Part shown: piece by piece, positions 952 through 28,767 of the stretch
Layout: the number at the start of each line of letters is the position of its first letter
How positions within the stretch are numbered: position 1 is the first letter of the stretch
Source of the DNA: Pirellulales bacterium
GTDB lineage: Bacteria > Planctomycetota > Planctomycetia > Pirellulales > JADZDJ01
NCBI GenBank assembly: GCA_035499655.1
Contig: DATJYL010000026.1
Span: 1-39,526, forward strand
Length of the DNA: 39,526 nt
Direction: 5' to 3'
Position numbers and translations under genes: made by a program
Notes under the pieces: model-generated
Database searches by the model: none
Told to the model about the DNA's origin: nothing
Seen by the model: the letters and a program-made list of their open reading frames with translations, nothing else

Positions 952-1914
952 TCACCTCGTTACACGTTTGAGAAACTTTGGGAATGCCCTGCGGAGATAA
1001 CATTGCTCCAGGTGAACATCGGTTAGGTCTTTGCCGGTGGGGAGCGGCAAGCGAATTCCGTGAGGCAGAAAAGACAACAGCCGGGCCGTGGCTTTGTTGC
1101 CGGCGGTGTCACTATCGAAAGCAAAGATGAGCAATGGACAGAGCGATAATGCGGCAACCGTGTCCAGCGAAGCATCGGATGCACTGCCACACGTTACGGC
1201 TTGCACAAGCTGGCCGGCTTCCTGATTGGCCAGCAGCGTGTCGAACTCCCCTTCACACAACAGCACGGGCCGGGCAGGATCGAGAGAGACATCGGGGTAG
1301 AGTGTTCCCTTGCGGCTGCCACGTTCACACTTGTATTTCGGCGGCCAATCGAAACGACGACAGTTGACGGCCCGCAGTTTGCCATGATGAAACCACGGAA
1401 TGGTGATTTGGAAGATGCCGGGAGGATCGACACCTAAGCCCAGCCGTGCGGCTTTGATCGTGGCGTTGCTCAATCCACGGCTACGGAGATAGTTCAAGTG
1501 GTCAGGATCATTCCACAGCGAACGCTCACAGCGGCGGACCATCCGTAGGTGTTGCCGTCGCCAAGCATCGTCGGGAGGTGACTGGCAAGCGGCCAAGCCG
1601 TGGGGTGGTGAAAAACATGGCGTCTTGTCATCTTGGCATCTTGAAATATGACTGTTTTCATTCCCTAAGAGAGAAGAGATATATTCTCTGGCTGTGTGGT
1701 AGGAAAAATCAGGATGTAGTTTTCTGATGAAGTCGATTGCGTCTCCCCACTCACCACAACCAAAACACTTCCACCGTTCCCGGTCTCCGAAAGGAGGAAG
1801 GATACAAAGGGAAGGATTACTGTCCGTGTGGAAGGGACACGTCCACCACGGCCGGGCATCGTGATTGCTTTCCGGTGGGCCAAGTTCAGATTGAATGATG
1901 GGAAGTAAGCTCAT
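952..1914 (-). CDS. DNA primase-like protein, CHC2 zinc finger plus TOPRIM
   Basis: Probable primase of the integrated element, 320 residues from ATG 1914. The N-terminus carries a CHC2-type zinc finger with Cys26, His29, Cys50 and Cys53 (CPFH ... WKCFGCGEWGDAIDFI), followed by a helical linker. A TOPRIM-like fold follows, with the acidic motif CEGEFDTLL and later FDSDTAG, the metal-binding residues expected for RNA-primer synthesis. It lacks the C-terminal helicase-binding domain of cellular DnaG. A longer in-frame start (GTG 2010) would overlap the upstream ATPase gene by 40 bp. ATG 1914 is preferred because the family core begins right after it, although its ribosome-binding site is weak. 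It lies directly downstream of the RepA-like ATPase, so the pair looks like a primase-helicase module. Confidence 0.85.
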   Translation of the reverse strand: MSLLPIIQSELGPPESNHDARPWWTCPFHTDSNPSLCILPPFGDRERWKCFGCGEWGDAIDFIRKLHPDFSYHTAREYISSLLGNENSHISRCQDDKTPCFSPPHGLAACQSPPDDAWRRQHLRMVRRCERSLWNDPDHLNYLRSRGLSNATIKAARLGLGVDPPGIFQITIPWFHHGKLRAVNCRRFDWPPKYKCERGSRKGTLYPDVSLDPARPVLLCEGEFDTLLANQEAGQLVQAVTCGSASDASLDTVAALSLCPLLIFAFDSDTAGNKATARLLSFLPHGIRLPLPTGKDLTDVHLEQCYLRRAFPKFLKRVTR

Positions 1915-1970
1915 TTTTATCTCATGGGAAGACGACAAGACGACAAGGCGCCTTGATTTACCCCACCCTG

Positions 1971-3290
1971 TCATTTGTCGCCTTGGTTCCGTTTCAATTG
2001 CCAAAACCACTTGCTACCCTGTTTGTCAGGTCTCACTCCCAATCTCCCAGTGACTACCCGCTGCAGCGTTCGCCCTGAGAATCCATGTTGCTCGCCTTCG
2101 TCGATAATCGGCTTGGAATGATGCGGCTTGCCATCGCTTAACTTGTCACGCAGGAAGGCAGCGGCTTTGTCCTGCTGTGTTTCCCGGTGGGGACGTTGTG
2201 GGGCTTCACCGAATTGCAAGCCGGTATCCGTGATACAAAAGCCCATCGGCTTCGGCTTACTCCCCAAGTTTTCTTTCACCACGGAGACACGGCGAAACGG
2301 GCTGTCCGGGTCCGGCTTGTCGATGCCAATGGCCGAACGCATCATGGCGTGGATAGCATTGCTACCGCGTGAAGCGTTGGCGGTGATGTCTTCCCCGATT
2401 TGCAGTTTGCGGCTGTGGTGAACGACGGTAATGGCCGTATTAGTCCGCTCGGCAATCTGTGCTAACGGTTGCAAGGCTTGAGCCACACGGCTGCAATTCT
2501 CATCGTGTCCGTGAGCAGTTCGCAGAGCGTCAATCACAACCAAGTGAATGCTTTTGGAACCGATGAGCAATTCGATACGGCGGAGGTGGTCAGGGTTTGT
2601 AATGCAAATTGGTTGGAAGATGTCGGGGAAGGGAAGCAAGATTCGCTTGGGTGGCAGGCCCCAGCGTTTGATCCGCTCCACTGTTTCACCTGTCTTCCCT
2701 TCCGTGTCGCACCACAGAACGTTGTGGGGCTTGCGGGGGCCTAGCTGCCCATCCGGCCATTTGCAGCCCGTGGTGACGGCGTTGATGATGCCACCCAACA
2801 CGAAAGCACTTTTACCGTCTCCCGGCTCTCCGAAAACTTCGCAGCACATACTGTAGGGAATCCAACCCCGCCACAGCCAGCGGACACCCTGTACACTTTT
2901 CATCGCTTCCGACATATCGACGGTCTCCGTGGGACACGGGGAATTTGGTTGGCAATTGGTTAGGTGAAGGTTGAACGTCTTCCGCTGAATTTCCGTGAGG
3001 GATTCTGTGAAGCGGTCGATACGTTGTTGCCGCTTCTTAGGAATCACACGCTCCAGGGCATCCAAAAACTTTCGCTGTTCGGGCGGCAGAGTTTCCACAA
3101 CACCGTTGACGGAATCCCCATGAGATAACTGCTTGATGAACCAAGCGAATTGCGGATCGTCGTACATTGGCAACTGCGTGCAACGGATCGGAACAATGTC
3201 CGTGCCTTGCTTTTGCTTCCGCATGGCAGCAACGAATTGCTGCGTGCTGGGTGGTTGCCGCGTTGATTTGTGCTTTGTAGAATTGGGCAT
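1971..3290 (-). CDS. RepA-like hexameric helicase/ATPase (AAA_25 type)
   Basis: A 439-residue RecA-fold ATPase of the RepA/AAA_25 group, likely the replicative helicase of the element. Walker A is GEPGDGKS at residues 154-161 and Walker B is LVVIDAL at about 250. VVHHSRK (motif H-like) and the SRGSNAI segment follow in family order. Residues 1-130 are a helical N-terminal region and the last 70 residues look like a winged helix (HGFSGRTLQRVV), common in planctomycete members. Start ATG 3290 has a GGTGA-type site upstream. The primase gene follows on the same strand with a small overlap or gap depending on its start, suggesting translational coupling. Confidence 0.85.
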   Translation of the reverse strand: MPNSTKHKSTRQPPSTQQFVAAMRKQKQGTDIVPIRCTQLPMYDDPQFAWFIKQLSHGDSVNGVVETLPPEQRKFLDALERVIPKKRQQRIDRFTESLTEIQRKTFNLHLTNCQPNSPCPTETVDMSEAMKSVQGVRWLWRGWIPYSMCCEVFGEPGDGKSAFVLGGIINAVTTGCKWPDGQLGPRKPHNVLWCDTEGKTGETVERIKRWGLPPKRILLPFPDIFQPICITNPDHLRRIELLIGSKSIHLVVIDALRTAHGHDENCSRVAQALQPLAQIAERTNTAITVVHHSRKLQIGEDITANASRGSNAIHAMMRSAIGIDKPDPDSPFRRVSVVKENLGSKPKPMGFCITDTGLQFGEAPQRPHRETQQDKAAAFLRDKLSDGKPHHSKPIIDEGEQHGFSGRTLQRVVTGRLGVRPDKQGSKWFWQLKRNQGDK

Positions 3291-3352
3291 GTTGATTTAT
3301 CACCGTGAGCCGCTTTCCTTTGCCGGGGGCGGCTTGCGGTGTTTAACGGGGC

Positions 3353-3646
3353 TTACCAGCCGGCCTTCTCCAATTCAAAGTTGGCAGTATCGGTTGCCCG
3401 TTGCCGCTGCTTAGACGTGCGGCTGGTTGGCTGCTCACCATTGCGAGCTGCGGTTGTAGCGGCTGCGAACCGCTCCAGGGCTTCTTTTGACGTGTAGCGG
3501 CGGCCGCCGATTACGACGGTCTCCAATCGAACGCCGCGACATCCACGTTGATACCAACGCCAGAGCGTGCTGACGTTAACCTTGCCCGGCAAAGAGCGGG
3601 CGGCTTGGGATGGTGTGAGCAATTGCTCGGCAGAAATGTCGATCAT
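3353..3646 (-). CDS. DUF1580-type small DNA-binding protein (excisionase-like)
   Basis: A 97-residue protein opening MIDISAEQLLTPSQAARSLP, with KVNVSTLWRWYQRGCRG and VIGGRRYTSKEALERFAAA. This matches what I know of DUF1580, a planctomycete family with a MerR/excisionase-like helix-turn-helix. The C-terminal tail is basic and Ser/Thr-rich. An AAGG ribosome-binding site lies 8 nt before ATG 3646. Its place between integrase and replication genes fits a recombination directionality factor or a regulator of the element; which of the two cannot be decided from sequence. Confidence 0.8.
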   Translation of the reverse strand: MIDISAEQLLTPSQAARSLPGKVNVSTLWRWYQRGCRGVRLETVVIGGRRYTSKEALERFAAATTAARNGEQPTSRTSKQRQRATDTANFELEKAGW

Positions 3647-3712
3647 GGTAGTGCCTTGCAGAGTGTGTTAAACATCTACAAAGCACTCTAATTACTTGAG
3701 CAGGGAAGAAAA

Positions 3713-3741
3713 TTGCACACGAGTGAACAGGCAGTGTGCAG
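3713..3741 (-). terminator. Possible hairpin terminator
   Basis: TGCACAC and GTGTGCA form a 7-bp stem around a 13-nt loop, 22 bp after the end of the gene at 3763-4278 in its direction of transcription, followed on the minus strand by ATTTTC. The stem is short and the T run imperfect. A second T run (GTTTTTC) faces the plus strand. Confidence 0.3.
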
Positions 3742-3762
3742 TTTTTCTGAGCGAAGATTTGC

Positions 3763-4278
3763 CTAGTTTGGCTTAATGGCCCGTGGTCGTCCGTGTTGCC
3801 GTTTGGGAATCTTTGGCAACTTGTTGCGGTTAGCGTATCGAATAGCCGCCTGCTTCGCGGCATTGGATGACCCGAGCGGTTCCCAGTTTTGGTGTTCGTT
3901 CACAATCCTGCGAATTTCTTTATAGGTAGTTCCATCACAGCACTTTTCATAGCAGAACTTATCGCGGGCATCGTTAAGGTTCACTGGCGCCTGTCGGGCG
4001 TTGCGGCGAAGATATCCTTGGATGAGTGCCAGTGCGTCGTCAGGTGTAATATCTTGCTCCAAAGCAAGGTGGTGGTCTGCCGTGGCTTCGTGAATTAATT
4101 CGATCCATTCCCGCCGGGTGGTCGGATACATTCTTCCCCATTTTTGTTCCCAGTCGGCACGATCAGACTTAATGCCCTCGCAGATTTCAGCGAGCCACCG
4201 TTCCAATTCAGGGGAAAGCGGTGTCTGCTCGGGCAAATGCTTGAACTTCTTGCTGGCAATGATGCTAGAGGCAGTCAT
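3763..4278 (-). CDS. Hypothetical protein of the integrated element
   Basis: 171 residues from ATG 4278, which has an AGGTG site 5 nt upstream. A longer frame starting at 4335 would overlap the integrase stop and has no such site. The protein is helical, soluble and charged, with several tryptophans (RWLAEICEGIKSDRADWEQK) and a basic C-terminal tail (IPKRQHGRPRAIK) that could touch nucleic acid. The segment DGTTYKEIRRIVNEH resembles a recognition helix. It sits directly after the integrase on the same strand. No family is recognised; an accessory DNA-binding protein of the element is a guess. Confidence 0.65.
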   Translation of the reverse strand: MTASSIIASKKFKHLPEQTPLSPELERWLAEICEGIKSDRADWEQKWGRMYPTTRREWIELIHEATADHHLALEQDITPDDALALIQGYLRRNARQAPVNLNDARDKFCYEKCCDGTTYKEIRRIVNEHQNWEPLGSSNAAKQAAIRYANRNKLPKIPKRQHGRPRAIKPN

Positions 4279-4331
4279 AGTACACCTACTTGTTATGTGA
4301 AATTTATTAGCTTTTGAAAAACAATCAAGTG

Positions 4332-5558
4332 TCAACCTACCCTGCCGATAACCTCTAAAGCTTTGCCGTGGTCAAGTTCCGCATAAACTTCAGTGATTGC
4401 CGCCGAACGATGGCCCAGCACGATACGGGCCACGTCCAGACCAAATTCTTTGCGGAGATTCGTGGCTGCATTGTGCCTGAGCCGATGGGGACTCCAGCGG
4501 TGGGCTTTTCGCCATTGGCGGGTTTCATCTTCGGTTGCATCTTTGGGTGCCGGGAAAGCCTTATCGCAGCCACGGGCAATTGCTCTAGCGTAGGAGTGGA
4601 CGGAATACTTATTGCCTGGTGTCCACCTTGGTTTGCGTTGTCGATTCGTCCCCGGACGGTTGCCACACGATAGAGCCGTTATTCGTTGGGTATGCCGGAT
4701 GGCTCGAAACTGCTGCACGGCTTCGGCTGGCGAAAACAGGAACGCCGTCAGGTCTGTTTTCAGAAACGGACGCAGTATCGCTTGGGCACGGGGGCCAATG
4801 TAGATCGTGCGACGATGGCCCCGGTGGGCAGTTTTGTGCCTTTCGGGAGTATAGGTCCAAATCCGGCCGCTCGTATCCAAGTCGCCCGTCCGCATGATGA
4901 GCAATTCACCTGGACGGGCAGCAGTCAGCAATTGCAAGTTGATGAGTGCGGCGACGGTGGGCGGAACATGATCTAACACGCCATCGACAAATGCTTGTGG
5001 CACGGGTTTCACTGGGTCCGATTCTTTTGCACCGCTCCGGCCGATCCGCAATCCAGCGACGGTTTGCAATCCGTGATACACGCTGGCTGGGATTAGCTCT
5101 TGTGACCCTGACCATTTGAACATGAGCTTGATTCGCCCGATGTCACGGTTGATGCTTGTGCGGCAGTAGCCTTTGTCGATGAGAGACCCACGCACGGCTT
5201 GCAGAGCCAGAGGGCCAAAGTCTTTGGCTGCAGTATCGCCATAAAGCAATCGCAGCAGACGGCACGCCTTGCGGATGTTATCGACTTCGCAGGTCTGCTG
5301 ACCGTCCGGGCCACGATAGTACGATTCAGCGTAACGCCTGAACCGCTGGATAACCTCAGCCACAGTCAATTCGGCGTTGTCCGCCGGACTGCCGCCGGTT
5401 GCCGCCCACTCGGCGATAAGCCGTTTGTACTCCTGCCGGCTGGCTGCTGAATTGTGCCGGCCAAGATAGCGGTCTCGGCCATTGATTGTGGCAACGGCCT
5501 GCCCGGTGGGCTTGTGAAGGCGATACGACGGAACGCGGGGAAAAGTAACGGTGGACAT
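4332..5558 (-). CDS. Tyrosine-type integrase of the integrated element
   Basis: A 408-residue tyrosine recombinase with the complete catalytic set: Arg215 (TAARPGELL), His358 and Arg361 (SPHRLRHNAAT), His383 (LGHRS) and Tyr392 (ITEVYAEL). Residues about 65-165 form the helical core-binding (SAM-like) domain. The N-terminal 55 residues (YRLHKPTGQAVATINGRDRY) look like an arm-binding domain. Ribosome-binding site AGGAGGT lies 7 nt before ATG 5558. The gene is adjacent to the 3' end of tRNA-Asn, the classical place for an integrase whose attachment site is that tRNA, so it should catalyse insertion and excision of this element. Two inverted repeats lie between its start and the tRNA. Confidence 0.95.
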   Translation of the reverse strand: MSTVTFPRVPSYRLHKPTGQAVATINGRDRYLGRHNSAASRQEYKRLIAEWAATGGSPADNAELTVAEVIQRFRRYAESYYRGPDGQQTCEVDNIRKACRLLRLLYGDTAAKDFGPLALQAVRGSLIDKGYCRTSINRDIGRIKLMFKWSGSQELIPASVYHGLQTVAGLRIGRSGAKESDPVKPVPQAFVDGVLDHVPPTVAALINLQLLTAARPGELLIMRTGDLDTSGRIWTYTPERHKTAHRGHRRTIYIGPRAQAILRPFLKTDLTAFLFSPAEAVQQFRAIRHTQRITALSCGNRPGTNRQRKPRWTPGNKYSVHSYARAIARGCDKAFPAPKDATEDETRQWRKAHRWSPHRLRHNAATNLRKEFGLDVARIVLGHRSAAITEVYAELDHGKALEVIGRVG

Positions 5559-5641: not shown

Positions 5642-5679
5642 GTATCCTAATTCCAGGATTCAGCACAACTTACAACTAG

Positions 5680-5752
5680 CTCCCCGAGTAGGACTTGAAC
5701 CTACGACCCAGCGGTTAACAGCCGCTTGCTCTACCAACTGAGCTATCGGGGA
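5680..5752 (-). tRNA. tRNA-Asn (GUU)
   Basis: A complete 73-nt cloverleaf on the minus strand: acceptor TCCCCGA paired with TCGGGGA, D arm GCTC/GAGC, anticodon stem AGCGG/CCGCT around loop CTGTTAA with anticodon GTT, T arm GTAGG/CCTAC around TTCAAGT, discriminator G. CCA is not encoded. The 3' end faces the integrase, so the tRNA 3' half is the probable attachment core. A repeat of that 3' segment is expected at the far end of the element, outside this window. Confidence 0.97.
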
Positions 5753-5777
5753 AAAACTGACGCTATCTACTAATCCG

Positions 5778-5842
5778 CTCCCCCGTCCCAGCGGTTAATC
5801 CCGGCGCGCCGGGACTTGCTCTACCACCTGAGCTATCGGGGA
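5778..5842 (-). pseudogene. Degenerate tRNA-Asn copy with a palindrome in the anticodon arm
   Basis: The acceptor 5' strand and D arm are nearly identical to the neighbouring tRNA-Asn (one T to G change), and the anticodon 3' side TTAACCGCTGGG is kept. The CGGCTG half of the anticodon arm is replaced by the 16-bp palindrome TCCCGGCGCGCCGGGA, and the T arm is deleted so that GGGAC runs into GGGGGAG. It cannot fold as a tRNA. It lies 25 bp upstream of the intact gene on the same strand, so it is a broken tandem duplicate rather than an attachment remnant of the usual 3'-end kind. Confidence 0.85.
5799..5814. repeat. 16-bp perfect palindrome, copy 1 of 3
   Basis: TCCCGGCGCGCCGGGA, identical to copies at 17581-17596 and 19171-19186. 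Here it sits inside the broken tRNA-Asn copy, replacing six bases of the anticodon arm. Three exact 16-mers in 39.5 kb are far beyond chance. Confidence 0.9.
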
Positions 5843-5898
5843 ATGATTTTTTAATGTAATCAAAGACCCGCGAACCGACAAGCAGTCCACCCCTATGC

Positions 5899-16978: not shown

Positions 16979-17500
16979 GTGAACGAACCGCGAGAATTAT
17001 TGTTGCAAGCCCGACGATTTCAGGTCGTGCGGATCGCCCATCAAGTGCCGGACGGCACGCTCCACAATCACGAGGTGGTGTTACACCCCGGCGCCGTGGT
17101 AATTCTGCCCTTGGTCGGCCCGGATCGGGTTTGCCTGATAGAAAATTACCGGGTAGCGGTGGGACAAACGTTGTGGGAGTTGCCGGCCGGAACGTTGGAA
17201 CCCGACGAAGACCCTGCCGAAACCGCAGCACGCGAACTCATCGAAGAAACCGGTTACCGGGCTGGTAAAATAGAAAAGCTGACTGAGTTCTTCATGTCGC
17301 CGGGCATTTTGTGTGAGCGGATGCACTTGTTTCTGGCGACCGATTTGCGGCCCGGCTCGGCCGCGCCGGAAGCGGGCGAGGAGATCCAAACCCACGTCAT
17401 GGGCTTGGACCAAGCATTGGCCAAGTGTGACAGCGGCCAAGTGCAAGACGCCAAAACCCTGGCCGGCCTGCTTTGGTACGACCGCCTAAGGCGGAAATGA
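16979..17500 (+). CDS. NUDIX hydrolase, ADP-ribose pyrophosphatase-like
   Basis: 173 residues from GTG 16979, with AAGGAG 8 nt upstream. The Nudix box is complete (GTLEPDEDPAETAAREL then IEETGY; GX5EX7REUXEEXGU), and the following EFFMSPGILCERMHLFLA is typical of ADP-ribose/ADP-sugar pyrophosphatases (NudF-like). It likely hydrolyses ADP-ribose or related nucleoside diphosphates using magnesium. Its stop codon TGA is the first TGA of a TGACCAA heptamer array. It converges on smpB. Confidence 0.9.
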   Translation: MNEPRELLLQARRFQVVRIAHQVPDGTLHNHEVVLHPGAVVILPLVGPDRVCLIENYRVAVGQTLWELPAGTLEPDEDPAETAARELIEETGYRAGKIEKLTEFFMSPGILCERMHLFLATDLRPGSAAPEAGEEIQTHVMGLDQALAKCDSGQVQDAKTLAGLLWYDRLRRK

Positions 17501-17617
17501 CCAATGACCAAGCACCAATGACCAATGAGGGAATGACCAAAGCGGACAAATTCTGCTTGCCTGCTTTCATTGGTCATTGGTCCCGGCGCGCCGGGATGGA
17601 CATTGGTCATTCTCGCT
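17495..17617. repeat. Inverted TGACCAA heptamer array between NUDIX and smpB
   Basis: Units of AATGACC/CCAATGA run rightwards from 17495 to about 17540, and units of TTGGTCA run from 17567 to 17617, so the two halves are inverted and can form a long imperfect hairpin. A copy of the 16-bp palindrome interrupts the right half. The first unit supplies the NUDIX stop codon. Confidence 0.8.
17581..17596. repeat. 16-bp perfect palindrome, copy 2 of 3
   Basis: TCCCGGCGCGCCGGGA directly inside a TTGGTCA heptamer run; left flank CATTGG, right flank TGGACATTGG. Confidence 0.9.
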
Positions 17618-18124
17618 TCATCCGCGCCGCATGGCCCGTTGAATATCGCGCTGGGCCGATTTGTTTTTCAGCACTTCGCGTTTGTCATGCAGCTTGCGTC
17701 CCTTGCAGAGCCCCAGCAGCACTTTTGCCCGGCCTTCGGTGAAATACATTTTGAGGGGAATCAGGGTCAGGCCTTTTTGGGTTGCCCGGGCGGCAAAGTT
17801 TTTGATTTCGCGGCGGTGGAGCAGCAACTTTCGCGGGCGTTTTGGGAGGTGATTTTGCCGATTGGCTTGCACGTACTCGGGAATATCGCAGCCCATGAGC
17901 CAGAGCTCGTTTTTTTGCAGCCGGGCATAGGCTTCTTCCAGCGACATCCGGCCGGCGCGCAGACTTTTCACCTCGCTGCCGACGAGCATGATGCCGCACT
18001 CCAGCGTTTCCAGCACGTCGTACTCGTGCCGTGCTTTGCGATTTTGCGCGATGAGCCGCTCGTTGTCGTGCTCTTTATCGGCGGCGGGTTTTTTGCCGCC
18101 TTTTTTGGAAGGTTTTTTTGCCGT
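17618..18124 (-). CDS. smpB: SsrA-binding protein SmpB, apparent ACG start
   Basis: SmpB binds tmRNA and brings it to stalled ribosomes. The frame holds the family core: NRKARHEY, VLETLECGIMLVGSEVKSLR, SLEEAYARLQKNELWL, then HRREIKNFAARATQKGLTLI and a basic tail (KGRKLHDKREVLKN). The first ATG/GTG-type codon, GTG 18016, would remove the conserved NRKARHEY segment. Upstream the frame stays open, with a Lys-rich leader reading AKKPSKKGGKKP. An AGGAG site (18132-18136) lies 7 nt before an ACG codon at 18122-18124, exactly where family members have Met. No ATG, GTG, TTG or CTG exists in frame in that stretch. With ACG the protein is 168 residues. Either ACG is used or the base is an error. Confidence 0.88.
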   Translation of the reverse strand, partial: TAKKPSKKGGKKPAADKEHDNERLIAQNRKARHEYDVLETLECGIMLVGSEVKSLRAGRMSLEEAYARLQKNELWLMGCDIPEYVQANRQNHLPKRPRKLLLHRREIKNFAARATQKGLTLIPLKMYFTEGRAKVLLGLCKGRKLHDKREVLKNKSAQRDIQRAMRRG

Positions 18125-18228: not shown

Positions 18229-19167
18229 ATGCAACTGGTCATACTCAATCCCTCAGCCAGTCCAGCCGCTGCCGATTCCGGCGCTGTCCATTCGACCACG
18301 GGCCCGCGACTGCCGCCGTGGCTGAAAAGAAATTTGCCCACGGGGGGCGGATTGCAGTTTACCTCACGGCTGATCGACGATCTGCGCCTGGAAACGGTTT
18401 GCGAAAGCGCCAAGTGTCCCAACCGCCTGGAATGCTGGTCGCAAAAGACAGCCACGTTCATGATTTTGGGGAATGTCTGCACACGCCCCTGCGGGTTTTG
18501 CTCCGTGCCCAAGGGCAAGACGGAAGCCTTGGAACTAGACGAACCCGAGCGCGTGGCCGAAGCCGCGGCTCGGTTGGGTTTGAAGCATGTGGTCATCACC
18601 TCGGTGACCCGCGACGATTTGCCCGACGGCGGCGCCGACCATTTTTACCATTGCGTGTTGGCGGTCCGGGAGCGAACGGGCGCGGCGGTGGAAGTTCTGA
18701 CCCCCGATTTTCTGGGCAAGCCTGGCGCTTTGCAGCGCGTGATGCAAGCGCGGCCCGAAGTGTTCAATCACAACACAGAAACCGTGCCCCGGCTGTACCG
18801 CACGGTGCGCGGCCGTAAAAGCGAATACCGCTGGACGCTGCAACTTTTGCGCGATGCCAAGCGAATCGATTCGCAGGTCAAAACGAAAAGCGGCCTGATG
18901 CTGGGTTTGGGCGAAACCCAGGAAGAGTTGCACGACGTGCTGGCCGATTTGCTGGACGCCGGCTGCGACATGCTCACGCTGGGCCAATATCTGCAGCCCA
19001 CGCCGCTGCACTTGCCCGTGGTGCGTTATGTGCCGCCTGCGGAGTTCGACGAACTGGGCCGCGCCGCCAAAGCCATGGGATTCCGCCGCGTGGCCAGCGG
19101 ACCGTTTGTCCGCTCCAGCTACCACGCCGGAGAAATGAATGTCGAATGTCTAAAGAATGACCAATGA
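18229..19167 (+). CDS. lipA: Lipoyl synthase LipA
   Basis: 312 residues from ATG 18229. Both iron-sulfur cluster motifs are present: CESAKCPNRLECW for the auxiliary cluster and CTRPCGFCSV (CX3CX2C) for the radical-SAM cluster. The substrate region (VFNHNTETVPRLYRTVRG), SGLMLGLGET and C-terminal RSSYHAGE, with its cluster-ligating Ser, follow. The enzyme inserts two sulfurs into octanoyl chains on lipoyl-dependent proteins. The last residues KNDQ and the stop codon are encoded by a TGACCAA heptamer, the same ending as HemG at 28756. lipB is not in the window. Confidence 0.96.
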   Translation: MQLVILNPSASPAAADSGAVHSTTGPRLPPWLKRNLPTGGGLQFTSRLIDDLRLETVCESAKCPNRLECWSQKTATFMILGNVCTRPCGFCSVPKGKTEALELDEPERVAEAAARLGLKHVVITSVTRDDLPDGGADHFYHCVLAVRERTGAAVEVLTPDFLGKPGALQRVMQARPEVFNHNTETVPRLYRTVRGRKSEYRWTLQLLRDAKRIDSQVKTKSGLMLGLGETQEELHDVLADLLDAGCDMLTLGQYLQPTPLHLPVVRYVPPAEFDELGRAAKAMGFRRVASGPFVRSSYHAGEMNVECLKNDQ

Positions 19168-19201
19168 CCATCCCGGCGCGCCGGGATGGTCATTGGTCAT
19201 T
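19156..19201. repeat. 46-bp perfect palindrome: heptamer arms around the 16-bp palindrome
   Basis: Left arm AATGACCAATGACCA, centre TCCCGGCGCGCCGGGA (copy 3, 19171-19186), right arm TGGTCATTGGTCATT: all 46 bp are self-complementary. It includes the lipA stop codon and lies between convergent lipA and the CBM9-like gene, so a two-way terminator or cruciform is possible. Further heptamers (TAATGTC) extend to 19220 and supply the stop of the opposing gene. Confidence 0.9.
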
Positions 19202-19217
19202 TATTCGACATTAGACA

Positions 19218-19883
19218 TTAGTCACATTGGTTCGTGACCAGTTCCAGCGTGCCCCAGGTGCTGGGGTCTTCCTTGTAGGGCAGCGTCGGCGGGCAGCAGA
19301 AAGTGTGTTCGCCGATTTCTCGGTCGATCACGGCCCAGTGAAAACCGAGCTTCGGATGTTCGGCCGGATCGAATCCGGTCAGGGCCGCCGCCGGAATGGC
19401 AATATCCAGGCGATATCCGTCGTTCAGCTTGTGGCACACTGCGCCCAGTGAATCGCGCACCAGCGGCTTGGGATTTTCGCGGGACCGGTTGATGGCGATG
19501 AGTTCCGCGATGGGCTGGGCCTGTTGATATCCGCCGCCGGTGGGCAAAAACACGAACTGATGGCAGAAGCGGCTGGCGCGGTGAATGTTGTGCGTATCGC
19601 GGGTGTCGATCCAGAGATACACGCCGTCGCTGTCGTCGATGCGGCTTTCGCGGCACCAGGGCGGCTGCTTCTTTCCCTGCACGGCAACCGAAAATGCCAG
19701 CCCCTGCTCGCTCCAAGCGGCCCGCACTTGCACGCGCTGCGGTGCATCGTCCAGCTCCGCGAAATTGGGCAGCAGATACTCATCCTCCAAAGTCACTCCC
19801 TTGGGCGTCCACAGCTTCGCCGCCTGCCGGCACGGCACGGCCAAGCGAAACAAAAAACTCGGGGGCAGAAGTTGGTGAGGCAT
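19218..19883 (-). CDS. CBM9-like carbohydrate-binding domain protein
   Basis: 221 residues from ATG 19883. The core resembles the family 9-like/DOMON beta sandwich used for sugar or haem binding: VRAAWSEQGLAFSVAVQGK, SDGVYLWIDTRDTHNIHRAS, RFCHQFVFLPTGGG, YRLDIAIPAAALTGFDP and LGFHWAVIDREIGEHTF. No signal peptide is evident, so it may act in the cytosol or reach the envelope another way. A longer start (19907) would add residues encoded by a heptamer-like stretch and is less likely. Its stop codon lies in a TAATGTC heptamer run. Function beyond ligand binding is unknown. Confidence 0.75.
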   Translation of the reverse strand: MPHQLLPPSFLFRLAVPCRQAAKLWTPKGVTLEDEYLLPNFAELDDAPQRVQVRAAWSEQGLAFSVAVQGKKQPPWCRESRIDDSDGVYLWIDTRDTHNIHRASRFCHQFVFLPTGGGYQQAQPIAELIAINRSRENPKPLVRDSLGAVCHKLNDGYRLDIAIPAAALTGFDPAEHPKLGFHWAVIDREIGEHTFCCPPTLPYKEDPSTWGTLELVTNQCD

Positions 19884-19953: not shown

Positions 19954-22900
19954 CTACTCACTCGCCGCCAACTGCTTCTTCCGAAACAGTGGCCGGCCAT
20001 TTTCCTCGGCGGCTTCAATCGTGGCCGCATGTTCCCGCAAAAAGGCCGCTAAATCGCCCCGGTGTAAATGGTCCGAGCTTGTAAACCGCAACTTCATGAC
20101 GTCCACGTCCGTACGGGCAGCTTCAAATTCCGGCTCGGTTCCCAAATCCGCAATCCGCCCCAGCGCAAAGCGCCCCTTAGGACCCGCCAGCGACAATTCC
20201 ACGGCCGCCAATTTTTTGGTCCACACCCGGGCCCACGGCTCGCGCTGCCCTGGCAACAGCAAATTGATCACCTGGCTGTGGTTCCACAAGGCTTGTGCTT
20301 GCGGGGCTGCGGCCAGGAGCATTTCCAACAGTTCTTCCAGCACTTCGGCTTCCCAGGCAATTTTTTTGCCTGGCGGGAAACCCTTTCGCAGCAGATGCCA
20401 CTTGCGGCCCAGCACCGTCCAGGGCATGACCGATTCCGGGTCTTGCTGGGCCCGCTGCGTAATTTTTTTGAAGCCCGCCACCGCCTGCTCGATAAATTCC
20501 CAGAAATGCTGGTGATCGATTTCGTCCAGGGCGTGAACCTTCAATTCCACTTCCTGCCACGGCCCGCGCAGCGTGCGAATTTTCACACGCCGGTCGGTAC
20601 CGTACACGGGCAGTTCGTGAAGTTCGTTCAGCGGCTTCATGCCGAGCCGCGAAATCAACTGGTCGCGGTTGAACGTCGCCTTAGCCATTCGAAATTTCAA
20701 CTTCAACAGCCATTGCTCGCCGGTGATGGCGTGGAGAAACCAGCCGTCTGTTTTTTTGGGGGCGGCGATTTCGACCACGCTGCGGTCGTTCCAGTTTGTG
20801 GGGCTAAACTCGCCGAGTTCTTGAATGCGATCGACCACTTGCTCCAAAATTTTGCCATCCCAGCGGCAGGGTTCGCCGTTGCGGCCCACGCGGTCGACCG
20901 TGTGCCAGCGCGGGCCATCGGCTTCCCACGGCATTTTGGTTTGCTCGCCGACGGCGGCAATTTCCAAATCGCCTTTTCGCTGGGCTTGGGCGGCGGCGAA
21001 ATCGTGCGGCTTGCGTTCTTCATGCGGCCCGGCGGCCAACACCGGGGCGAGCGCGGCGGCGGTGTGAGAGGCAAAAGCAGAAGGCTGAAGGCTGAAGGCA
21101 GAATTTGCGTTGTCGTTTGCTCGCTTGGCCGCTTGAATCTTCCCCTTCTGCTTTCTGCTTTCTGCCTTCTGCGTTTGTATGATTTCCTCCGGCGTCCCCT
21201 CGGCCACGACCTGTCCGCCGCCGGCGCCGGCTTCGGGACCCAAATCGATGACCCAATCGGCGGTTTTGACGACATCCAAATTATGCTCGATCACGATGAC
21301 CGTGTTGCCCAAATCGACCAGCCGCTGCAGCACATCGAGCAACTTGCGAATGTCGTCAAAATGCAGCCCCGTGGTCGGCTCGTCGAGCACGTACAGCGTG
21401 CGGCCCGTGTCAGGCCGGGCCAACTCGGCAGCCAACTTTACGCGCTGGGCCTCGCCGCCGGAAAGCGTATGGGCCGGTTGCCCCAGCCGCACGTAATCCA
21501 GCCCCACGTCGCACAGCGTTTGTAAAATGCGGCGGATTTTCGGAATGTTCTCGAACAATTTGAGAGCCCGGCCGCAGGACATTTCCAGCACGTCGGCAAT
21601 CGATTGCCCATGATACGTCACCGCCAGCGTTTCCGGATTGTAGCGCCGGCCGCGGCAGGTATCGCATTGCACCCACACGTCGGGCAAAAAGTGCATTTCG
21701 ATGCACAACTCGCCGTTGCCTTCGCACGCTTCGCACCGGCCGCCGGGCGCATTGAAGCTGAACCGCCGCGGCGTGTAACCCCGCACTTTGGCCTCGGGCA
21801 ATTGCGAAAACAATTGGCGAATTAAATCGAACATGCCAGTGTATGTGGCCGGATTGCTGGTCGGCGTGTTCCCGAGCGGCTGTTGATCGACCTGGATGAT
21901 TTTGTTGATGTACTCGATGCCGCGGATTTCGTCGTGCAGGCCGGGAATTTCGCCCGCCCGATGGAGCGTGCGCGCCAGCGACTTGCAGAGCACATCTTCG
22001 ATGAGCGAACTTTTGCCCGAGCCGCTGACGCCGGTGATGGCCGTGAGTGTGCCCAGCGGAATGCGGACCGTCAGGTTGCGCAGGTTGTTGTGCCGCGCGC
22101 CGACGATGCTGAGATAATTGATCGGTTCCGCGCTCGTGTTGACTTCACTACCGCCCTGCGCCCGGTCGACACCCGTCGACCGTGCTCGGTTGCTCCTTGC
22201 GGCTAAACGGCGGTTTGTCGGGACGGGAATTGATTTTTTGCCGCTCAAATAGGGCCCGGTCACTGAGCTGCGGCTTTTGCTCACCTCGGCCGGCGTGCCG
22301 TGGGCCACGATTTGCCCACCGAATTCGCCGGCCGCGGGACCGAAATCGAGCAGCCGATCGGCGCTGGCCACGACTTCTTTATCGTGCTCCACCACCAGCA
22401 GCGTGTTTCCCAGATCGCGAAGTTTTTGCAGCGCGCTGAGCAGGCGGCGATTGTCGCGCGGATGCAGGCCGATGGTCGGTTCATCAAGCACGTACAGCAC
22501 GCCGCACAGCCCGCTGCCGACCTGGCTGGCCAAGCGAATCCGCTGCGCTTCGCCGCCGGAAAGCGTGGGCGCCTGGCGACCGAGCGTGAGATATTCCAGT
22601 CCCACGTCGATTAAAAATTGCAAGCGGTTGCAAATTTCGCGGAGCAAATCGCCGGCGATTTTTTTCTCGCTGCCCGTCGGCTTCCAGGCGGAGAAATCGG
22701 CCAGCAATTGATCGAGCGGTTGGCGGCACAGCTCGCCGATGGTTTGATCGCGCAGCCGCACGGCCCCGGCCAGTTGGTTCAAGCGACTGCCGCCGCACAC
22801 CGAGCATTCCACTTCGTCGACCAAATGATCCAACTGCCCACGCATGGTCGGCGATAACCGCGCGGCTTCCTCCAGCGCCGGGTAGAGGCCTTTGTATTGA

Positions 22901-25900
22901 AAACGAAACAGCGGCTGTTCTGGAGCGCCCGCGCTCGCCTGTCGGCTCGCGGCTAAACTTTTCTCTGCCTGCGGCCCGCCGTCTTCTGCCTTCTGCCTTC
23001 TGCTTTCTGCCTTCTGCTCTCCTCTCACCTCAATCCAATCTTCCCCCGCGCCGTGCATGACGATTCGCCGCTCGCGGCTGGTGAGTTGATCGAATGGCAC
23101 GTCGGTGCGCAGCCCCGTCTGAGCGGCCAGCGCGGCTAGCATCTGCTTAAATAGCGGCCGGCTCACTTCCGTCCACAGGGCAATCGCGCCGTCGGCCAGT
23201 GAAATTTTTGGATCGCGGATCAAAGCCGCCGGATTGGCCCCCAACTGCGTCCCCAAGCCTTCGCACTCTTTACACCAGCCGAGCGGACTGTTGAACGAAA
23301 AGCTGTGCGGCGTGAGCGGCTCGAAGCTGCGGCCGCACTTGTCGCAGGCAAAATGCTGACTGTGAACTTCCGTCGGCCAGCGCTGCTCCTGCACGCCATC
23401 GACCGGGAAGCAAATGTGCAGCACGCCTTTACCCAGCGACAACGCCGTTTCCACGCTGCTGGCAATCCGGCTACGAGCGTCACTGCCGGGCCGAACCGTG
23501 ATGCGGTCGACAATCACTTCCACCGCATGCTTGCGGCGGCGGTCAATCGTCGGCGGGGCATCGACGGTGAATGTTTCGCCATCGACCCGCATTCGCTGAT
23601 AGCCCTGCGAACGGATTTCGTCCCACAGCGTTTCGTATTTTTCGCCGACGCGAATGTCCAGCGGGGCCATTAAATACAGTTTGGTGCCCGGCTGCTCGGC
23701 TATGATTTTTTCGATAATTTCGTCCGACGATTGCGTGCCGATGGGGACATCGCACGCCGGACAATACGGCTTGCCCAGCCGGGTGAGCAGCACCCGCAGG
23801 TAATCGTAAATTTCGGTCACGGTGCCGACCGTGGAGCGCGGCGTGTGGCCAAGATTTTTCTGCTCGATGGCAATCGCCGGCGACAACCCCTCGATATGCT
23901 CCAGCTTGGGCTTTTGCATTTGGCCGACGAACTGCCGGGCGTATGCGCTCAAACTTTCCACGTACCGCCGCTGGCCTTCGGCATAAATGGTGTCCATGGC
24001 CAGCGAACTTTTGCCGGAACCGCTTAGCCCGCAGCAGACGGTCATTTGATCGCGTGGGATTTCGACATCGATGCCTTTCAGATTATGTTGCCAGGCCCCG
24101 CGGACCCGGATGGTTTGCTCGCCGAAAATTTCGCCGGCGGATTTTTTGCTCTTACGAGATTTTGGATGAGCCGCAGCGTCGGCAACGCTAGTTTCGCCAT
24201 GCAAGATTGGCCGCAGCGCGACGGCAGTGTGCGAGGCGCTCGGTTCAATTACACTACCGCCCTGCGCTCGGTCGACGCCCGTCGACTGTGCTCGGTTGCT
24301 CCTCGCGGCTAAACGGTTGTCCTTCTCACTGACCACTTCCTCCGGCGTGCCGACGGCCACCACTTCGCCGCCGCCAGCGCCGCCTTCGGGCCCCATATCG
24401 ATAATCCAATCGGCGGTTTTAATCACGTCCAAATTATGTTCGATCACAATCACCGTGTTGCCCAAATCGACCAGGTCGTGCAGCACTTTCAGCAGCATTT
24501 GGATGTCGGCAAAGTGCAAGCCGGTTGTCGGTTCGTCGAGCAAATACAGCGTGCGGCCTGTGCTGCGCTTGACGAGTTCGCGGGCCAGTTTGATGCGTTG
24601 CGCCTCGCCGCCAGAGAGCGTGGGCGAGGCTTGCCCTAGCTTCAAATAATCCAGCCCCACGTCGTGCAACGTTTGCAGTTTGCGGCGGATATCGGGCACG
24701 TTTTCGAAATGCGCCAACGCTTCCTGCACGTCCATTTCGAGCACTTCGGCTATGCTCTTCCCCTTGAACTTCAACTGCAGCGTCTCGCGGTTGAAGCGGT
24801 GCCCATTGCACACCGGGCAAGTCACCCACACGTCGGCCAGAAAATCCATTTCCAGCCGGTTGGAGCCGTTCCCTTCGCAGGCCTCACACCGGCCGCCGCT
24901 TACGTTGAAACTGAAGCGCCCCGGCTTATACCCGCGGGCTTTCGATTCCGGCAGCTTGGCGAACAAATCGCGAATGTCGTCGGCCAGCTTGATGTACGTG
25001 GCCGGGTTGGAGCGCGGCGTGCGACCGATGGGGGATTGATCGATGGCGATGAGTTTGTCGAGGTGTTCCAAACCTTCGATGCGATCGTGCGCTCCCGGAT
25101 TGCCGAGGCCGCCGTTCAAATCGCGATTGAGCGCTTCGGCCAGAATATCGCTGGCCAGCGAGCTTTTGCCGGAGCCGCTGACGCCGGTCACGCAGACCAG
25201 CGCGCCGAGCGGAATTTCGACCGTGATGTTTTTGAGATTGTTGTGGCGGGCGCCGACAATGCGGAGGTGATTTTCACCTGGTGCTGAGCTTCCCTTCCGA
25301 TTAGCTGCTAAACCGCTAGCGGACTTCGCACCGTTGCCATTTGCGCCCAATCCATTCAAATTGATTCGGCGTTGTGACGGAATTTCAATCTTCCGCGTGC
25401 CGTTCAAAAACTGCCCGGTCACGCTGCGCTCGGTGTTGATAATCTTTTCGAGCGGGCCGGCGGCGACTAGTTCGCCGCCGCGCACGCCGGGGCCAGGGCC
25501 GAAATCGATGATCGTGTCGGCCGCCCGCATCGTGTCTTCATCGTGTTCGACCACGACGACGGTATTCCCCTTGTCGCGCAACTGATGCAGCGTATCGAGC
25601 AGCTTTTGATTGTCGCGTGGATGCAAACCGATCGAGGGTTCGTCGAGAATGTACAGCACGCCGACCAGCCCGCAGCCGACTTGGCCGGCCAGACGAATGC
25701 GCTGCGTTTCGCCGCCGGACAGCGTGGGGGCCGTGCGATCCAGCGACAGATAATCGAGCCCCACGTTGACCAAAAATCCCAGCCGCCCGCGAATTTCTTT
25801 CACCGCTTCTTCGGCAATTTTGCGGGCCGTGTCGTCCAAAATCAGCTCGCTGAAAAACTCGGCGGCGTCGCTGACCGCCAGGTTGCACACTTCCGGCAGG

Positions 25901-27369
25901 CAGCGGGCTGGGCGTTCAGCAAATTTCGGATGAGCCGTGGAAATGGTCACACTCCGGGCCTGCGGATTCAGCCGGGCCCCGTGACAGGCGGCGCAGGGCA
26001 TGACGCTCATATATTTTTCCAACTGCCGCTGCTGCATTTTGCTGTTGGTGTTGCGATGCCGCGACAACAACTGCGGAATAATGCCTTCGAAATGCCCGCC
26101 GTATTTCATCCCTTGCGGACCGTTCCGCCAGGTGAAAGTGATATGCTCCTCGCCGGTGCCGTACAGCCAGATTTTTTGCAGCTCAGGCGAAAGCTGCCGC
26201 CACGGCGTCTCCAGCATCGTGCCGTGTTCCAGGCTGTGCAGCCGCTCGACGGTGTCGGCCACGCCCTGATAAATGTGCCGCCGCCAGCGCCCCATGTCGC
26301 GCCACGGACCGACCAACTCAATCGCGCCCTGGGCAAACGATAAATCGGCGTTGGGCACGAGCCGTTCGTCCGCGAAGCTGTAAATTTCCCCCAGCCCATC
26401 GCACTGCGGACACATCCCCTGCGGACTGTTGAAGCTGAACAGTTGCGGACTGGGCGGCTCAAAACTGATTCCGCAATGCGTGCAAGCGTAGTGAGCGGAG
26501 AGAACGAGGTCGGAGTTGTGCTTGGCTAAACGAGCGATTCCCTTGCGGCCTGTCGTGGCAGGCGCGCTCGCCTCACGGCTCGCAGCTAAACCGCCAGCGG
26601 TCTCCGTACTTTCTGTCCCCTGCGCCCTGCCCCCTGCGCCCTTTTCTCCCGCTTCCACCGCCACTACCAACTCGCCGCTGCCCAAGCGCAATCCCAACTC
26701 CACGGCCTCGGCCAAACGGGGCCGCACATTCGGTCCGGCGACCAGCCGATCAATCACCACTTCAATCTGGTGCCGCATCTGCCGGTCGAGCTTCAAATCG
26801 GTCGATAGTTGCACCACGTTGCCGTCGACCCGGGCCCGAGCAAATCCCTGCTTCAGCAAATCCTCGAACAAATCACGGTGTTCCCCTTTTTGAGCCCGCA
26901 CCACTGGGGCCAGCACCAAAAACGGCGTCCGCTCCGGAAGCTGCAAAATCCGCTCGATAATTTGTTCCCGGCTTTGGGCGGTTATCGGCCGGCTGCACTT
27001 CGGGCAATGCCCCTGCCCCACGCGGGCAAATAGCACCCGCAGGTAATCGTAAATTTCCGTAATCGTGCCGACGGTAGAACGCGGATTTTGGCCCGAGCTT
27101 TTTTGTGCGATCGAAATCGACGGACTCAGCCCGGAAATGTGGTCGACTTCCGGCTTGGGCATTTGCCCCAAAAACTGCCGGGCGAAGCTGGACAGGCTTT
27201 CGACATACCGCCGCTGCCCCTCGGCATACAGGGTGTCGAACGCCAGCGAGCTTTTGCCCGATCCGCTAACGCCGGTTAGGCAAATGAGCTGATTCCGCGG
27301 CAGCACCACGTCGACGCCGCGCAGATTATGCTCTCGAGCGCCGCGGATAACGATATCAGGGGCAGGCAT
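19954..27369 (-). CDS. uvrA: Giant tandem UvrA with duplicated C-terminal module
   Basis: A 2471-residue UvrA, about 2.6 times the usual 940. Copy 1 (residues 1 to about 1020) and copy 2 (about 1085-2080) each hold two ABC ATPase sites. Walker [10 protein letters not shown] or GLSGSGKSS lies at about residues 33, 727, 1112 and 1779; each site has a matching LSGGE(T/A)QR signature and Walker B (LDEPS/LDEPT). Each copy has both UvrA zinc modules (for example CPQCDGLG and [10 protein letters not shown]). The protein recognises DNA lesions and loads UvrB. Residues 2146-2310 and about 2315-2471 are two divergent copies of an unknown module: each opens MPW then G..WH, continues with a Trp-rich helix and has WN..S.V. 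Linkers at about residues 240-285, 665-700, 1010-1080, 1450-1485, 1720-1745 and 2065-2110 are low-complexity and encoded by dispersed repeats. ATG 27369 is chosen because the family begins [12 protein letters not shown]; upstream codons come from a repeat. Confidence 0.95.
21075..21172. repeat. Heptamer block inside uvrA (linker to C-terminal modules)
   Basis: GAAGGCT-type units (21075-21105) and CTTCTGC/TTTCTGC units (21143-21172) are inverted relative to each other and read in frame as [11 protein letters not shown] ... [10 protein letters not shown]. The block lies exactly between UvrA copy 2 and the extra C-terminal region. Confidence 0.8.
22147..22210 (+). repeat. 64-bp hairpin repeat, copy A (inside uvrA)
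   Basis: Contains GGTCGAC-ACCC-GTCGACC and ends GCGGCTAAACGG. Differs from copies B and C at only a few positions. On the uvrA strand it encodes [20 protein letters not shown]. Confidence 0.85.
22921..22958. repeat. REP-like repeat inside uvrA
   Basis: Shares CGCTCGCCT, CGGCTCGC and GCTAAAC with the stretch at 26556-26595. Both encode an AASR(Q/E)ASA peptide within UvrA linkers. Confidence 0.65.
22981..23020. repeat. CTTCTGC heptamer array inside uvrA
   Basis: Five consecutive units of CTTCTGC or CTTTCTG type, read on the uvrA strand as [15 protein letters not shown] in a linker of UvrA copy 2. Confidence 0.85.
24253..24316 (+). repeat. 64-bp hairpin repeat, copy B (inside uvrA)
   Basis: Same 64 bp as copy A with four differences, including GGTCGAC-GCCC-GTCGACT. 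It encodes [19 protein letters not shown] in the linker joining the two UvrA copies, a place not homologous to copy A, so the insertions are independent. Confidence 0.85.
26556..26650. repeat. REP-like repeat plus CCCTGC(G/C) heptamers inside uvrA
   Basis: 26556-26595 matches the REP-like repeat at 22921. 26615-26643 is a heptamer run (CCCCTGC, GCCCTGC, CCCCTGC). Together they encode the Gly/Ala/Thr-rich linker in the first UvrA copy ahead of the zinc module. Confidence 0.65.
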
Positions 27370-27381
27370 GTCGCGTTTTTT

Positions 27382-27445
27382 CCGTTTAGCCGCGAGGAGC
27401 AACCGAGCACGGTCGACGGGCGTCGACCGAGCGGAGGGCGGTAGT
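27382..27445 (-). repeat. 64-bp hairpin repeat, copy C (upstream of uvrA)
   Basis: Inverted relative to copies A and B and 12 bp upstream of the uvrA start codon, so its hairpin should lie in or near the uvrA leader. Differs from copy B at two positions. Confidence 0.85.
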
Positions 27446-28647: not shown

Positions 28648-28767
28648 GCACCAATGACCACACGGAGTGGCGGAGCTAAATCCCATTGACCAATCATATT
28701 CGCTCCGTCATTGGTCATTGGAGCTTGGTTATTGGTCATTCGATTTTTTCATTGGTCATTGGTCATT
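28648..28767. repeat. Inverted TGACCAA heptamer array between small basic protein and hemG
   Basis: CCAATGACCA (about 28651-28660) is inverted to TGGTCATTGG (about 28711-28721), and more TTGGTCA units follow to 28767, where they encode the last residues (KNDQ) and the stop of hemG. Confidence 0.8.

Follow-up and report, generated by a model that had tools for sequence, protein, structure and literature searches.

A 16-bp palindrome in a tRNA-Asn duplicate of a Pirellulales bacterium: probably a mobile mini-hairpin that spreads by replacing bases

In a Pirellulales genome, the upstream one of two tandem tRNA-Asn copies carries a perfect 16-bp palindrome within its anticodon arm, and this palindrome is probably a non-autonomous mobile mini-hairpin with a replacement type of spread, which has disarmed the duplicate. 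The element would consist of a TCCCGR/YCGGGA stem closed by a loop of 4 nt, the sequence of which varies from genome to genome. In spreading it would take the place of a short stretch of DNA (4-10 bases in the Planctomycete, a whole 17-nt anticodon arm in Bacteroidales), frequently one that forms a small stem-loop or a part of one. For the window, by which we mean the whole stretch of 39,526 nucleotides that was analysed (contig C26 of G000, a 4.54-Mb draft genome that is 97% complete), we infer the following order of events. A tandem duplication would have given two tRNA-Asn genes, the hairpin would have taken over the 5' half of the anticodon arm in the upstream one, and the T arm would have been lost too, leaving a pseudogene on the leader side. 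The downstream gene, being essential, would have been retained under selection, and the mini-hairpin would be visible in tRNA duplicates because these tolerate it.

If this is true, few mobile DNA units as small as this palindrome have been described, and it is documented by in-frame copies in genes, by empty sites and by tandem arrays in which filled and empty units are adjacent. It also bears on an old open question, namely how elements so small can move when they encode no enzyme. The genome-specific loops would be natural tags for tracing donor and recipient, and the recurrence in tRNA duplicates of unrelated bacteria raises the question whether spare copies of tRNA genes are put out of action by an active process.

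The tRNA-Asn locus in the window

The features of the locus and the further palindrome copies in the window are given in Table 1. ARAGORN recognised one tRNA gene in the window, tRNA-Asn(GTT), and this was the only intact tRNA-Asn seen in the 97% complete draft. The pseudo-tRNA-Asn lies 90 bases upstream of it in the direction of transcription and was called as a tRNA by neither ARAGORN nor Rfam, which both report the intact copy only; the Rfam scan gave no family other than tRNA above noise. Two blocks of the pseudo-copy can be matched to the intact gene: 5815-5843 to 5725-5753 (29 bp, 97% identity) and 5784-5798 to 5704-5718 (15 bp, 93% identity). Between these blocks CAGCCG in the intact copy stands against TCCCGGCGCGCCGGGA in the pseudo-copy, so that 6 bases have become 16. 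Retained are the 5' acceptor strand, the D arm and TTAACCGCTGGG; the T arm is missing, while an acceptor-like 3' strand, ACGGGGGAG (minus strand), is still present. An earlier note on this DNA had described a tRNA-Asn copy broken by a palindrome and lying where the tRNA leader would run, and both statements are borne out. Given its position between the conserved upstream flank and the functional tRNA, the pseudo-copy would run in the leader, and it is presumably transcribed as part of it; it might, as the note had suggested, also affect the processing of the tRNA. A candidate promoter matches 8 of 12 consensus positions, which is below the threshold of the scanning tool and was unreported by the scan; transcription from it, if it is active, would yield a single precursor with both the pseudo-copy and the tRNA.

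Table 1. Features of the tRNA-Asn locus and palindrome copies, in positions of the window
Feature	Position	Strand	Remarks
Intact tRNA-Asn(GTT)	5679-5752	-	ARAGORN, Rfam
CAGCCG (tRNA strand CGGCTG)	5719-5724	-	Intact copy: 5' anticodon stem and part of loop
Spacer, 25 bp, pseudo-copy to intact tRNA	5753-5777	-	
T-arm-less pseudo-tRNA-Asn	5778-5842	-	Next to conserved 5' flank, ancestral position
Perfect 16-bp palindrome TCCCGGCGCGCCGGGA	5799-5814	.	In the pseudo-copy, replaces 5' half of anticodon arm
Possible promoter TTGTCG-17-TACATT	5853-5881	-	Conserved in G001
Tyrosine recombinase (integrase)	4332-5558	-	Starts ~120 bp past tRNA-Asn 3' end
Palindrome copy 2	17581-17596	.	ATTGGTC heptamer array between two convergent genes
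Palindrome copy 3	19171-19186	.	Centre of longer inverted repeat of heptamers, just past stop of lipoyl-synthase-like ORF

The orthologous locus of G001, a genome of the same genus, has a single intact tRNA-Asn with an integrase beside it and a 5' flank, ATTTTTTAATGTAATC, that is shared with the window. Because the single gene has this same flank, the pseudo-copy holds the ancestral position, with the intact copy 90 bp farther inward. G001 did not provide the exact empty site of the window copy (an intact duplicate), as this genome has one tRNA-Asn and no duplicate. The comparison of empty sites that the earlier note had proposed thus failed at the window locus itself, and it succeeded for other palindrome copies, as described below.

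Several other elements adjoin the locus. Genes for an integrase, a DUF1580 protein, an AAA protein and a DnaG-like primase are found at 952-5558, and contig C52 of G000 (L058/L255) has no whole tRNA-Asn gene but a 47-bp 3' half, from the anticodon loop onward, beside the end of an integrase-like ORF. The tRNA-Asn looks like an integration hot spot, and the integrase in the window is a neighbour, outside the palindrome system. Further along the window, at 19954-27402 on the minus strand, one ORF of 2482 amino acids resembles two full UvrA (excinuclease ATPase) proteins in tandem fusion.

Distribution of the palindrome and replacement of bases

The palindrome is a dispersed element with a very patchy distribution. 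There are 3 copies in the window against 0.04 expected (up to two mismatches allowed), a number that no shuffle reached, and in G000 we found 42 exact copies against 0 of a reversed control, and 60 copies of the 14-bp core; its presence elsewhere, already noticed in the earlier note, was thus confirmed. In G000, heptamer arrays (ATTGGTC/ATTCGTC) hold around 18 copies and the repeats R1, R2 and R3 around 16, the other contexts being two tRNA-like sites, and genes. The heptamer arrays occur in both orientations at gene ends (window 17500-17620, 19120-19220 and 28700-28800), often between convergent genes, and are possibly bidirectional terminators. On contig C4 of G000 the palindrome sits in a second degenerate tRNA-like sequence just after tRNA-Arg(CCT) (L016:1709), and the same contig carries a tRNA-Gly beside an integrase-type leader.

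The number of 16-mers is 42 in G000, 0 in G001, 1 in G002 (same family) and 52 in G006 (other family). Within the order, 380 of the 397 genomes have none. Besides G000, seven genomes from several other families have at least three copies (52, 34, 15, 9, 8, 7 and 3, the 34 in G190). Class-wide sampling showed the 16-mer to be equally sparse, and most of the around 670 genomes examined have zero copies. In G006 it is located within TTCAGGG heptamers and other repeats. Decayed copies of the 16-mer were seen as well. A scan of GTDB contigs for the heptamer context of the 16-mer yielded nothing.

Comparison with G001 made clear that the 16-mer replaces 4-10 bases, and no target duplication was seen. 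An uninserted copy of repeat R1 in G000 reads GAGGA-CAGCCG-CCTCTACA and the filled copies read GAGGA-16mer-CCTCTACA; in the other arm of R1, CGGCTG is replaced by a variant of the palindrome with C..G ends. At two orthologous loci R3 reads GCCG-CGACCG-TTGG in G001, and G000 has GCCG-16mer-TTGG at the one and GCCG-16mer-CCGG at the other. At three orthologous loci within heptamer arrays, GATT or TGCT of G001 corresponds to the 16-mer in G000. A 3-bp target-site duplication, as could be read from CATTGG-16mer-TGGTC in the heptamers, was rejected on the basis of these loci, since the apparent 3-bp repeats result from the replacement of 4 bp. The replaced length is variable and no single motif was found among the replaced stretches. 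The junctions are biased, with a purine before 40 of the 42 copies and a pyrimidine after 38 (27 and 29, respectively, of 31 distinct contexts). Some copies have spread within larger repeats (R1, arrays), and these are not independent events. What remains of the insertion proposed in the earlier note is the entry of a tiny palindromic element into a duplicated tRNA; a simple insertion it was not, considering the bases replaced at many sites relative to G001. The possibility raised there that relatives would show the palindrome as ancestral sequence fails as well, since the 16-mer is the derived state at those sites that were compared.

Four genes that contain the 16-mer have clear orthologues in G001: IleRS (L022), CysRS (L026), DusB (L044) and a DUF11-domain protein (L052). 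All four copies are in frame, in the phase that reads PGAPG, and the net gain relative to G001 is 4, 3, 2 and 3 codons, respectively. The 16-mers are real DNA, under selection.

The same form in tRNA duplicates of other bacteria

To GTDB species genomes we applied a pattern for the anticodon-arm junction combined with any TCCCG-N6-CGGGA hairpin, which also gave several matches unrelated to tRNA. Other Pirellulales, and Bacteroidales too, were found to have pseudo-tRNA-Asn or pseudo-tRNA-Arg units with TCCCGR-NNNN-YCGGGA for all or part of the anticodon arm, located upstream of the intact gene. The event in the window is thus not a one-off, as the same hairpin form recurs in other Planctomycetota and in another phylum. 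In an IMG/VR contig (L187) an intact tRNA-Asn is preceded by three pseudo-tRNA-Asn units of 83 bp in tandem, two with the 16-mer of the window and one with TCCCGATCCATCGGGA; the IMG/VR matches of the bare 16-mer look mostly like chance matches in high-GC phage genes, L187 being the informative one. The 16-mer of the window also occurs in a T-arm-less copy upstream of an intact tRNA-Asn in a Pirellulaceae genome (L196). Hairpin-bearing tRNA-Asn units were further found twice in tandem in L205 (Bacteroidetes), once in L199 and twice in G090, and L250 has a pseudo-tRNA duplicate in the same hairpin-replaced state. In G675 three tandem pseudo-tRNA-Arg lie beside the intact gene, with the whole anticodon arm, ACAGCCTTCTAAGCTGT, replaced by ATCCCGAAGCTTCGGGAT, and G676 has tRNA-Arg copies of like form; the arm replaced in Bacteroidales is the whole one of 17 nt. 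A second hairpin is located in the T arm in L204, L207 and L209. Across the order, an upstream unit of this form was found in 2 of the 397 genomes (G000 and G090), both of which are among the few multi-copy genomes.

Most genomes with the tRNA form also carry dispersed hairpins of the family. In genomes chosen solely for the tRNA form we counted 80, 31, 21, 23, 50, 16 and 29 occurrences of TCCCGRNNNNYCGGGA, the reversed pattern giving 0-1 (80 vs 1, 31 vs 1, 50 vs 0 and 29 vs 0 in the control pairs). Few dispersed hairpins were found in G672, G677 and G674, likewise chosen for the tRNA form, and L200/G115 has the tRNA form without the dispersed family (3 vs 3 in the control). The loops are genome-specific, for example CAAG and TGAA in G675 and GTAC in G676. 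In G675 a tandem array unrelated to tRNA, with a unit of 103 bp (L312, G675:C14:35000-37800), consists of one empty and five filled units. The empty unit reads CGGCAGTTTAG-CAAACTG-CTGG, and CAAACTG is replaced by a 16-mer in the filled ones, in which two of the loops differ. This array is a natural record of hairpin filling and amplification.

Alternative explanations, mobilisation and known elements

The pseudo-tRNA units might instead be functional leader hairpins, in which an extended stem-loop capped by TCCCGR-NNNN-YCGGGA would control the transcription or processing of the tRNA precursor. Consistent with such a role, the units sit between upstream flank and intact gene in both Planctomycetota and Bacteroidales, and those that lack the T arm fold as one long hairpin-capped stem-loop, with folding z-scores of -6.0 (L205), -4.4 (L199), -4.2 (L250), -2.9 (L187), -2.2 (L196) and -2.0 (window). 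Moreover, the 3' part of the L205 unit, GAGCTAATGAGGAA, is a near-exact complement of the 5' part of the tRNA, TTCCTCAGTAGCTC. We nevertheless consider a leader function unlikely: the upstream units are rare (the 2 of 397 genomes given above), their lengths and 3' ends differ, the window copy folds modestly, and identical hairpins are found in heptamer arrays and genes, where a leader role does not apply.

An element encoding a GIY-YIG endonuclease that targets tRNA-Asn could also make pseudo-copies, the hairpin being a scar or a shield that protects the spare copy from re-cutting. Such an ORF separates an intact tRNA-Asn from a 3' remnant with the hairpin in L197, L206 and L217/L251 (G115), and stands directly before a hairpin-bearing tRNA-Asn remnant in L204; the L206 ORF has its stop codon within the tRNA fragment, which resembles the arrangement of a homing element that has entered the D loop. 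However, the window locus lacks such a gene (G000 has its matches on C88, C42 and C129, whereas C26 has none and carries an integrase at this place), the gene was not found in the genomes richest in palindromes, and the copies in tRNA-Arg, heptamers, repeats and genes would go unexplained, which makes this origin quite improbable. We regard the GIY-YIG gene at tRNA-Asn loci as a separate element that possibly cooperates.

That the palindrome is a protein-binding site under selection, like a Noc-, SlmA- or parS-like chromosome marker, would fit a perfect and invariant 16-bp palindrome with around 40-60 copies in G000 and G006. It is hardly credible considering the zero copies in the same-genus genome, the replacement of bases inside repeats and genes and the variable loops of related hairpins elsewhere. 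Finally, an assembly or library artefact, which the earlier note had mentioned and by which a constant palindrome is joined in at hard-to-assemble repeats, is largely refuted and retains the slightest of chances: every multi-copy genome examined is a fragmented draft and repeats hold many of the copies, yet the in-frame PGAPG in the essential genes for IleRS, CysRS and DusB makes an artefact unlikely, decayed copies exist, the Bacteroidales loops are genome-specific, and the same 16-mer occupies the same tRNA position in independent assemblies, namely the IMG/VR contig and a separately deposited Pirellulaceae MAG.

As to how the mobile mini-hairpin would spread, the replaced stretch was often all or part of a small stem-loop (anticodon arm, T arm, R1/R3 arms, GCAGTTT-AGC-AAACTGC, and CGG-CAAT-CCG in DusB), which suggests a hairpin-for-hairpin exchange on single-stranded DNA; the heptamer sites GATT and TGCT show no obvious stem-loop. 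The element would thus move as a folded single-stranded hairpin; template switching from one hairpin to another where the lagging strand is exposed is one possible route, and the action of a nuclease or transposase another. The flanks of the 42 copies in G000 were not more self-complementary than mismatched flanks, and the same was found for G006; no large hairpin need therefore have been there beforehand. Two candidate mobilisers were rejected. The RAYT/REP-type Y1 transposase is equally common in zero-copy genomes (13 in G001, 11 in G017), and the small GIY-YIG nuclease does not track copy number, as its genes were not found in G006 (52 copies) or G190 (34 copies). One palindrome copy, on contig C141 of G000, lies near a Y1 gene, inside a REP-like hairpin. 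It is conceivable, and we suggest it tentatively, that these hairpins form a class of mobile DNA in which a stem-loop of 16 nt, with TCCCGR conserved in its stem, is the entire unit. This class, present in at least two phyla, would change places with stem-loops already there (repeat hairpins, or the T and anticodon arms of spare tRNAs), and would do so by a mechanism other than transposition.

An open-literature search gave no account of the TCCCGR mini-hairpin or of hairpin-disarmed tRNA duplicates, although this does not prove their absence from the literature. By description, the nearest known kind would be the small dispersed repeats (SDR) of Nostoc. Elhai and co-workers are said to have reported these in 2008 as dispersed, mobile sequences of ~21-27 nt in tandem heptamer and other repeats, and we know of no enzyme for them. 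Like the SDR, the 16-mer is tiny, dispersed and found in ATTGGTC/ATTCGTC arrays with orthologous empty sites; it differs in being shorter (16 nt), in replacing bases, in the conservation of its TCCCGR stem across phyla and in its recurrence in the anticodon arms of duplicated tRNAs. Rickettsia palindromic elements (RPE) are ~100-150 bp long and lie in frame within protein-coding genes. The mini-hairpin resembles them in its in-frame copies compatible with function (four of four orthologue-checked genes), but with 16 bp that replace bases and add 2-4 codons it matches them neither in size nor in consensus (for the genus Rickettsia see PMC2635572). REP/REPIN sequences with RAYT transposases, which are known from Planctomycetes too (PMC3116915, PMC3733652), are likewise short, palindromic and dispersed, whereas the mini-hairpin is 16 nt only, shows no GTAG or CGTC end tag in 42 aligned copies and lacks an association with RAYT, as Y1_Tnp counts do not follow palindrome counts. 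MITEs share the non-autonomous state and the inverted repeat, but the mini-hairpin has neither a target-site duplication nor internal sequence. The GC-rich palindromic and double-hairpin elements of organelles are also short GC-rich hairpins that proliferate across a genome (PMC7235400, PMC4524435); by contrast, the mini-hairpin is bacterial, has a fixed length of 16 nt and a conserved stem, and replaces bases.
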